Shown: positions 17,483 through 35,979 of the stretch, piece by piece
Layout of the letters: the number at the start of each line of letters is the position of its first letter
Numbering within the stretch: position 1 is the stretch's first letter
Assembly (NCBI GenBank): GCA_023954745.1
Contig: JAGSHC010000002.1
Location: 49,526 to 113,525 of the forward strand
DNA from: Deltaproteobacteria bacterium
GTDB taxonomy: Bacteria > Myxococcota_A > UBA796 > UBA9615
Direction of reading: 5' to 3'
Length of the DNA stretch: 64,000 bases
Program-made: the position numbers and the translations under genes
Notes under the pieces: generated by a model
Database searches by the model: none
What the model was told of the DNA's origin: nothing
The model's input: the letters and a program-made list of their open reading frames with translations, nothing else

Positions 17483-17749
17483 CTACTTGCGACCCGTCGG
17501 GTTGGGCTTCGCGAGGTCGATGACCAGGTTCCGGTTCCCGATGCTGGCGCCAGTCAGCTTGTTGCGGGACATCACCGCCAGCTCGTGAGTCTCGAGCTCG
17601 ACGAAGCCAAAGCCCTTCGAGAGACCCGTACCGCGGTCCATGATCACGCGCACGCTCGTGGGCTCGATGTTCACGGTTTTGAAGAGCTCACGTACATCGT
17701 CGTCGGTGCAGGAGTAGGGCAAGTTGCCGACGTAGAGTCGTGCGGACAT
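17483..17749 (-). CDS. Small RRM-type RNA-binding protein
   Basis: RNP2 RLYVGNLPYS and RNP1 LSKGFGFVE. Confidence 0.95.
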   Translation of the reverse strand: MSARLYVGNLPYSCTDDDVRELFKTVNIEPTSVRVIMDRGTGLSKGFGFVELETHELAVMSRNKLTGASIGNRNLVIDLAKPNPTGRK

Positions 17750-17809
17750 CAGAGATCCTTTCCGGCGCAGGGATGCGCTCGGGTCGGGCGTGGAGAAGGA
17801 GCTAGGGGA

Positions 17810-18028
17810 TCAGCGCTGGCGGTAGGTGATACGGCCGCGCGTGAGGTCGTAGGGCGAGACTGCGACAATCACGCGGTCGCCTCGCAGAACTCGGATGCGG
17901 AACTTGCGCATCTTGCCGCCCAGGTGGGCCAGAATCTCATGTTCCTCATCAGTCACGACACGGAAGGTCCCTCCAGGGAACACCTCAGTGACGGTGCCTT
18001 CCATCTCGATGGAATCGTCGTTCGCCAT
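17810..18028 (-). CDS. infA: Translation initiation factor IF-1
   Basis: [16 protein letters not shown]...[35 protein letters not shown]. Confidence 0.96.
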
Positions 18029-18164
18029 CCAGTCCTCTCTTTGGGCCACACGTAGAAAAGCCCGAGCCGAAAATGGCGCGGGCAGCGGGAACCCATCAGC
18101 GGCGGAAAGCTAACCATGCTCGGGGGCCCCGTCAAGCAAGGCCCACGTGTGCCATCGTCCCTTG

Positions 18165-33469: not shown

Positions 33470-34405
33470 ATGAACACCGACCCGACCGAAGGGGTGCGAT
33501 CGCGGGGCATGGCTCCAGGAGGCACCCCGCGCACCAGCTGCCCCCTGTGTGAGGGCACGAGTCTGAAGCCCACCCTCCGCCTGCGCGACCGCCAGCTGCT
33601 CACCTGCAGCGAGTGTGGGGTGCGGGTCACGGACACCTACGCCGATGGCGACGCGGTCGCCGACTACTACACCGAGATCGAGGCCCACCACGGCAAGCTC
33701 GGGACGAGTCTCGCGGACCGCGACGGAGCCTTGCGGGCCATCGCTCGGGACCAGGCAGACCGCATGGAGTCCCTGTGCGGCCCTCGACGGTTCGGCACCT
33801 TCCTCGAGATTGGATGTTCTCGCGGGCATCTGCTGGAAGAGATGCAGAACCGTGGCTGGCGCGTGCAAGGGATCGAGGTGTCACGCCGCTCCGCCGCCGA
33901 GGCGGCCGGCCGAATCGACGGGAGCGTGCACTGCGGCACGCCGGAGGACGCGCCCTTCGCGCCCGGGAGCATGCAACGCATCGCCATGTTCGACGTGCTT
34001 GCGCACCTTCCGGAGCCGCGGCGCACGCTGGCTGCGGTCGAGCGGCTCCTCGCCCCGGGTGGCGAGCTGTTGCTGAGCACCGTCAACGAAGACTGGCGTC
34101 TGGTGCCCGCGTTCCTCGCGGCCTTCAAGCTCGCCCCGGCGCGCACGGCGGGCATGCGGGACGAGATGTACGAGGGGCAGCACTACTGCTACTTCCGGGC
34201 GAGCAACGTAGGTCAGCTGCTGGAGTCAGTGGGCCTGACCCTGCACGCCGTGCGACCCATCGAGCCCCTCAGCACACGGTTCTTCGTGCACCAGTACGGC
34301 TGGAAGCGGAGGCTGGCGCTGCTGGGGATGGTGCAGGCAGACCGCCTGCTGCGGTCGAGCCGCAAGATGATCGTGCTGGCGAAGAAACCAGCGCCGAAGT
34401 TCTAG
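33470..34405 (+). CDS. Class I SAM methyltransferase with N-terminal zinc-ribbon-like motif
   Basis: CPLCEG...CSECG; FLEIGCSRGHLLEEM; MFDVLAHLPEPRRTL. Confidence 0.9.
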   Translation: MNTDPTEGVRSRGMAPGGTPRTSCPLCEGTSLKPTLRLRDRQLLTCSECGVRVTDTYADGDAVADYYTEIEAHHGKLGTSLADRDGALRAIARDQADRMESLCGPRRFGTFLEIGCSRGHLLEEMQNRGWRVQGIEVSRRSAAEAAGRIDGSVHCGTPEDAPFAPGSMQRIAMFDVLAHLPEPRRTLAAVERLLAPGGELLLSTVNEDWRLVPAFLAAFKLAPARTAGMRDEMYEGQHYCYFRASNVGQLLESVGLTLHAVRPIEPLSTRFFVHQYGWKRRLALLGMVQADRLLRSSRKMIVLAKKPAPKF

Positions 34406-34422: not shown

Positions 34423-35220
34423 CTACTCGCCCTGCACCTTGTCCATGGCCTTCTCGGCGCCCTCTTCGACGGCTTCCTTGGCGTCCTCGGCGGTGTCCTC
34501 CGCCTTCTCGCCAGCGTCTTCTGCCGTGTCCTCGGCGTCGGCAGCGGTGTCCTCGGCCACCTCCTTCGCGTCGGCGGCGGTCTCCTCGACGGCCTCCTTG
34601 GCGTCGGCAGCGGTGTCGGCGGCCTCGGCGGCCTCCTTGCGCTCGACCTTGCGGTCACGGACCTTCGTCTCCTCGACGGGGGCCCCCGGCGCAGCGGCGG
34701 TCATCGTGGCGGCGGTGAAGGAGCTCGTCAGCGCCGCGCTCATGGCGTCGAGGTTCTCCATGCGAGCCTTCTTCTTGCCGTAGGCCACGGCCCGCATGAT
34801 GAGGTTGCGCCCCTCCCAGTGGAACACCCAGCTGCGCGACGAGGTCCGCATCTTGTGCTCGAGCACGACGCGGGCCTCTTGGCCGGCCACGGTCGTCTCC
34901 TGGATTCCACCGGGCGAACGACGCTCCGTGTAGTAGCGCCCCAGGTTGCTCATGATCAGGTCGATCTGCCCCGGGTCCTGCTTGTAGGGCGAGGGCACCT
35001 CGATGATGTTCACCTGGCCCCAGTCCCCGCCCAGCCACATGCGCTTCTGCTCGTTTCCGAGGTTGCTGTGGTCCTTGAGCCCCACACAGTCGACCTTGAC
35101 CTCGAAGGTTCCGAGGAGATCGGTGTAGGTGCAGTCCTCGGCGGCGGCGGGCGTGGCCAGGAGGGCAACTCCGGCGAGGCTGAGGAGCGCGACACACGCG
35201 CGGGAAGACAGAGACGACAT
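34423..35220 (-). CDS. Secreted protein with C-terminal Ala/Glu-rich helical repeat
   Basis: Signal peptide; AADAKEAVEETAADAKEVAEDTAADAEDTAEDAGEKAEDTAEDAKEAVEE. Confidence 0.8.
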   Translation of the reverse strand: MSSLSSRACVALLSLAGVALLATPAAAEDCTYTDLLGTFEVKVDCVGLKDHSNLGNEQKRMWLGGDWGQVNIIEVPSPYKQDPGQIDLIMSNLGRYYTERRSPGGIQETTVAGQEARVVLEHKMRTSSRSWVFHWEGRNLIMRAVAYGKKKARMENLDAMSAALTSSFTAATMTAAAPGAPVEETKVRDRKVERKEAAEAADTAADAKEAVEETAADAKEVAEDTAADAEDTAEDAGEKAEDTAEDAKEAVEEGAEKAMDKVQGE

Positions 35221-35312
35221 GGGCTTCTCCTAGAAGGCGCGGAGGATGCCAGCGGGCAGGGAGGGCGGCAAGTCAAGGCCTCGCAAGGCATTGCGCAGCC
35301 ACGATGCGTCAA

Positions 35313-35396
35313 ACACCCTCGCCAGCCCTGAGCGGGTGTGTTATCCCTCTTGCTGACTCAGGTACCCCGATGCCCGAGAGGGCACCGGGGTTTTTT
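35313..35396 (+). promoter_or_regulatory. infC leader with candidate attenuator (intrinsic terminator 364-396)
   Basis: accccg-a-tgccc-gaga-gggca-c-cggggT followed by tttttt; upstream acaccc/gggtgt stem and cctgag/ctcagg complement. Confidence 0.72.
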
Positions 35397-35421
35397 CGTT
35401 CCAGAACACAGGAGGTGTGAA

Positions 35422-35979
35422 ATTCGTCGCAGGCGTCATTTGCCGCAGATGCCCCAAAACCGGGGCCCGCGGATCAACCGGCAGATCCGTATCAGTCCCA
35501 TTCGACTGATTGACGGTGAGGGAAACCAGGTCGGAATCATCGAGACCTACGAGGCCATGAAGATGGCTGAGGAGTCTGGGCTGGACCTCGTCGAGGTGTC
35601 CCCCCAGGCCCGTCCACCAGTGTGCAAGCTGATGGACTACGGTCGCCACAAGTACGAAAAGAACCGGCAGGAGCGTGCGCAGAACAAGAAAACTGCGGAC
35701 AACACTCCTAAGGAAATCCGGTTCCGTCCCAACACGGACACGCACGATCTCGAAGTGAAGATCGGCAAGGCCCGCAAGTTCCTCGAGAACGGGAGCAAGG
35801 TGCGGATGACCGTGCGCTTCCGTGGCTCCGAGATGCGGCGTCAGGACGTGGGACGCGCAACGCTGCGCAAGGCCACCGAGATGCTCAAGGACATCGGCAA
35901 GCTCGAGAACTCGATTCCCGAGATGAACGGTCGCATGCTCTCGGTCACTATGGCTCCCGCCGCGCCTACGAAGTCGTAG
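35422..35979 (+). CDS. infC: Translation initiation factor IF-3, probable AUU start
   Basis: GPRINRQIRISPIRLIDGEGNQVG...ARPPVCKLMDYGRHKYE; AGGAGG at 35410-35415, 6 nt before in-frame ATT at 35422; first in-frame ATG only at 35449. Confidence 0.9.
   Translation: MRRRRHLPQMPQNRGPRINRQIRISPIRLIDGEGNQVGIIETYEAMKMAEESGLDLVEVSPQARPPVCKLMDYGRHKYEKNRQERAQNKKTADNTPKEIRFRPNTDTHDLEVKIGKARKFLENGSKVRMTVRFRGSEMRRQDVGRATLRKATEMLKDIGKLENSIPEMNGRMLSVTMAPAAPTKS

Follow-up and report, generated by a model that had tools for sequence, protein, structure and literature searches.

The infC gene of a deltaproteobacterial genome (GCA_023954745.1; here G000) is preceded by a hairpin and T-tract that, with somewhat better than even confidence, can be read as an attenuator or partial terminator close to the promoter, an element of which the initiation-factor units of this genome would have three. 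The element lies in the window, i.e., the whole 64,000-nucleotide stretch of contig JAGSHC010000002.1 that was analyzed. In an 899-kb sample containing 679 called genes, clean compact terminators within the 5′ leader precede infC, infA, and rimP, and no further clean 5′-leader terminators were found in the rest of the sample. The sample represents 12.6% of the genome and included the infA/infC window and the rimP contig on purpose. A fourth compact site, between rplT and pheS (contig C36, locus L106), reads as the rplT terminator. That infA and rimP of this genome have comparable terminators in their leaders strengthens the case for attenuation at infC. As judged from sequence, early termination may serve to tune the output of the initiation factors, since infC, infA, and the presumed rimP-nusA-infB unit each have such a signal. 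By itself, infC would be one more early terminator, and the three-unit pattern is more interesting.

Table 1. Features of the infC and infA regions (positions in the window)
Feature	Position	Strand	Description
infA (IF1)	17810..18028	-	Pfam eIF-1a, E 1e-24
infA leader (approximate limits)	18037..18140	-	TTGACG-N17-TAGCTT promoter, hairpin GCCCGcGCCattttcGGCtCGGGC (18060-18083, estimated), TTTTCT
Predicted infC promoter	35319..35347	+	-35-like TCGCCA, 17-nt spacer, extended -10 TGT-TATCCC (35339-35347)
Predicted transcription start region	35353..35356	+	inferred, 6-9 nt past the -10 element
Promoter-proximal intrinsic terminator	35364..35396	+	two-part hairpin, one A.C mismatch, GAGA loop, T6; -21.6 kcal/mol
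Shine-Dalgarno AGGAGG	35410..35415	+	GGAGG core kept in six genomes
infC (IF3)	35422..35979	+	Pfam IF3_N and IF3_C; ATT start; no rpmI-rplT behind

Hairpin and T-tract before infC

The hairpin (CCCCGaTGCCC-GAGA-GGGCAcCGGGG, 35365-35390) is followed directly by T6 (35391-35396), which stops 13 nt 5′ of the Shine-Dalgarno sequence; the folding energy in Table 1 includes the outer pair (ACCCCG-a-TGCCC-GAGA-GGGCA-c-CGGGGT). A hairpin with T6 ahead of infC had been pointed out in a sequence-only reading of this DNA, and it is present there, of terminator grade, and beyond chance expectation. In 377 kb of this genome, which has a G+C content of 68%, 30 sites with a hairpin and T-rich tail of any quality were found on both strands, the majority being long imperfect stems within genes. 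Strong compact intergenic sites numbered only two, the infC hairpin and one after rplT, versus a mean of 0.035 in 200 dinucleotide shuffles of the intergenic DNA, which indicates that the infC hairpin is not a chance feature. Few terminator-like sites in the 377 kb are as clean. A simple terminator scan did not call it; the A.C mismatch in the stem is the probable reason. No second copy of the infC leader was found in the genome by DNA similarity. A candidate leader peptide, an ATG-TGA frame spanning the hairpin, was rejected, its TGA being absent from the family members G004 and G005.

As expected of a premature terminator, the hairpin and U-tract lie between promoter and gene on the same strand, and at the hairpin there is no same-strand gene upstream for a terminator to end. 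The upstream neighbor (34423-35220) is confirmed to be divergent, so the infC transcript is the likeliest one to meet the hairpin. It is very improbable that the terminator serves to stop upstream transcription, either of a methyltransferase gene (33470-34405) or of an antisense RNA over 34423-35220. No clear terminator was seen after the plus-strand gene ending at 34405, but the hairpin is downstream of the conserved infC promoter, so infC transcripts would be stopped too.

Predicted promoter and start codon of infC

A two-block element, TCG-N17-TGnTATnC, is found at -102 to -114 from the ATT codon in all six family genomes, and the bases between the two blocks differ among the leaders. Its conservation was judged by a hold-out pattern test, with a chance of occurrence in three held-out leaders of ~4e-14, and in the genome of G000 it occurs twice in 1.8 Mb (both strands). 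The element is most simply interpreted as a putative extended -10 promoter; the rimP promoter of G001, a member of the same genus, has the same TGTTATCC as the infC promoter. The position of the -10 element places the predicted start near 35354, which would give a leader of ~70 nt with the hairpin starting ~10 nt into the transcript.

The ATT at 35422 is taken as the infC start codon on the basis of the conserved reading frame downstream and the fitting Shine-Dalgarno spacing. ATT with GGAGG six nucleotides 5′ is common to all six family genomes, and the ATG downstream of the ATT is not conserved in G001. IF3 is known to control its own synthesis through a noncanonical start codon, which is ATT in Escherichia coli and ATC in Streptomyces (PMC5472188). 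The start codon here falls within the set ATT, ATC, and ATA, and the ATT in all six family members resembles those systems; by analogy, infC translation is likely also under IF3 autocontrol. However, such control works on translation, and the hairpin is not needed for it.

Upstream stem and L20-type regulation

The sequence-only reading also proposed that acaccc and gggtgt form an RNA stem whose loop pairs with a downstream segment as a pseudoknot (cctgag/ctcagg), and it mentioned the L20-dependent attenuation of infC leaders in Firmicutes. All four elements exist (ACACCC at 35313, CCTGAG at 35327, GGGTGT at 35334, and CTCAGG at 35357). However, they overlap the promoter motif conserved in six genomes, and their pairing bases are not kept in relatives. 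The stem and loop (35313-35339) correspond to about -41 to -15 from the predicted start; the stem is probably not RNA because it falls within the predicted promoter, 5′ of the start. The stem-plus-pseudoknot pattern also occurred in 43 of 5,000 shuffles and in 210 of 9,074 (2.3%) genome tiles. Over the infC leader, every Rfam family scored below its cutoff. The anti-hemB RNA (RF02837), with 19.8 bits versus a gathering cutoff of 49.5, was rejected, and the L20_leader family had no match in 35200-35560 at the gathering score or at E values up to 10. Consequently, a longer leader RNA in which the stem and pseudoknot control the terminator, possibly in an L20-like manner, has the existence of its elements and the weak anti-hemB match on the same span in its favor, but the overlap with the promoter, the lack of conservation, and the missing L20 match make it highly improbable.

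The L20 leader is known from the Bacillus infC-rpmI-rplT operon (PMC6097659), which is similar to the present case in having an intrinsic terminator ahead of infC and an ATT start. It differs in that the leader here is only ~70 nt long, has no L20-binding structure and no Rfam match, and belongs to an infC gene that is separated from rpmI-rplT. In G000, rplT is located on contig C36 behind rpmI and its own TTGACG promoter, and the next gene downstream of infC is a convergent Radical SAM gene; in G006, from the next family, infC and rplT are still together. On contig C36, rplT is followed by pheS with a strong terminator between them, and this gene order is the same as that in E. coli. Thus, of the earlier idea of an infC attenuator, a real terminator in the leader persists and has gained parallels at infA and rimP, whereas the RNA architecture and the L20 parallel are not supported.

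infC leaders in relatives

The infC leaders of six family members, two of which belong to the genus of G000, were compared and are too divergent to align; a search for relatives by protein returned only one close relative, whose contig is the one already represented by G001. The perfect hairpin with T6 was found in G000 only, i.e., in one of the six family members, which counts against the attenuator reading. At the same place, G001 has a weaker two-part hairpin followed by TCTCTTTT, an interrupted U-tract, and G003 has a hairpin followed by TTCGT, a weak U-tract. The leaders of G002, G004, and G005 contain structures without a T-tract. Compared with shuffles, the combined folding p value was 0.005 for the six leaders and 0.03 without G000, and the family leaders without G000 thus fold only marginally better than shuffles.

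These comparisons bear on two other explanations. The hairpin may be a 5′-end stabilizer of the mRNA, the U-rich stretch being a single-stranded landing site (e.g., for ribosomal protein S1) that aids the weak ATT start, with little termination. It would fit this explanation that most relatives have a hairpin close to the 5′ end, whether or not a U-tract follows, and that G001 and G003, with their weaker stems, also have U-rich sequence before the Shine-Dalgarno. However, T6 directly after the G000 hairpin is rare in this genome of 68% G+C, and terminators of the same layout occur at the other two initiation-factor units, so that stabilization is considered unlikely. The second explanation is that the terminator is partial, unregulated, and specific to the lineage and does no more than hold infC mRNA at a lower constant level, or else that it was acquired by chance. 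In its favor, even the congener G001 does not keep the element as a terminator. Against it, the element coincides with its counterparts at infA and rimP of G000, and shuffles rarely produce such a hairpin; this explanation is judged quite improbable.

Leader terminators of infA and rimP

In five of the six family members (G000, G001, G003, G004, and G005), the infA leader contains a hairpin with a U-rich tail. The hairpin is located at a near-constant distance from the TTGACG-N17 promoter, ~20 bases past the -10 box, and its stem sequence turns over between family members. The combined folding p value over the six infA leaders was 7.5e-5. Throughout the order, infA is preceded by a promoter of the form TTGACG-N17-TAnnnT. 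The letters CCCG...CGGG common to the infC and infA stems were not used as evidence, as they are expected in G+C-rich stems. In the region 17483-18140 (minus strand), infA with its leader is followed by a gene for an RRM RNA-binding protein, and all seven genomes of the order have these two genes together.

The rimP leader of G000 (contig C297, locus L216) contains a clean terminator, and 25 of 31 genomes of the class have a terminator in this leader. The examined gene was rimP itself, the presumed first gene of rimP-nusA-infB, which encodes IF2. The terminator in G000 corresponds to the known rimP-leader, a 5′ terminator of rimP-nusA-infB that was described without an antiterminator and for which NusA was proposed (Naville and Gautheret 2010, PMC2965389). 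Rfam searches of the rimP leaders (L216 of G000 and L119-L124) gave no match at E values up to 0.05. The infC leader resembles the rimP-leader (PMC2965389) in being a short intrinsic terminator without a visible antiterminator on an initiation-factor unit. However, it is found before infC rather than rimP, is not conserved across the class, and has a C-rich 5′ arm. Its stem (CCCCG...CGGGG) has the inverse orientation of the rimP-leader motif GGGc(...)gCCC, which is weak evidence because the motif is short and G+C rich.

For E. coli, it has been stated as an open question how the three initiation factors stay in step although their genes are scattered; IF1, IF2, and IF3 go up together there in the cold, and how this is coordinated is not understood (PMC6511841). 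An early-terminator layout common to all three units would offer a simple, testable way to coordinate them. In its strongest form, infA, rimP-nusA-infB, and infC would make up an attenuation regulon in this family, with terminators ending ~40 to 55 nt from the start and one shared factor setting the read-through so that IF1, IF2, and IF3 stay in step; this extension is speculative and, on balance, unlikely. The shared factor in such a regulon may be NusA, a cold-shock protein, or an RRM RNA-binding protein, for example the product of the gene next to infA.

Proposed mechanism at infC

From the computed hairpin, promoter motif, ATT start, and infA and rimP terminators, we infer a transcription start, termination in vivo, its regulation, and a factor as follows. 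Transcription would begin near 35354, and the polymerase would reach the intrinsic terminator within ~40 nt. A fraction of the polymerases would release an RNA of 40 to 44 nt, and infC would be reached by read-through alone; termination so close to the start (~40 nt) may be inefficient. Regulation, if any, would act through a protein that alters termination efficiency, since the ten bases upstream of the hairpin leave no room for an antiterminator.

NusA would be the best candidate for this protein: in Bacillus subtilis, it is established that NusA stimulates termination in the leader of its own gene, and NusA has been proposed for the rimP-leader. By this termination in the 5′ leader, NusA autoregulates its B. 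subtilis operon (Mondal et al. 2016, cited in PMC12288461). The nusA leader is similar to that of infC in having, between promoter and gene, a terminator on which a general elongation factor could act to change its efficiency; it is NusA stimulated, whereas NusA dependence at infC is a proposal. Cold-shock proteins would be second, because the three initiation factors rise together in cold E. coli. The Csp proteins are antiterminators at the E. coli nusA-infB operon.

infC neighborhoods in the class

In the class outside this family (f1), 41 of the 49 infC loci have tRNA-Val(GAC) immediately upstream of the gene. Family f1 has infC without both of the usual neighbors, with tRNA-Val(GAC) absent and rpmI-rplT elsewhere. 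A terminator is often found between tRNA-Val(GAC) and infC in the class loci outside f1 (L002-L055). In G032, G033, and G045 (L012, L030, and L032), TTGACG occurs in the 3′ arm of the hairpin behind tRNA-Val and resembles the -35 element of an infC promoter farther downstream, so that the terminator and promoter would overlap. In G008 (L003), which has a second infC, a strong T6 terminator lies between tRNA-Val and the infC Shine-Dalgarno sequence and leaves no room for a promoter.
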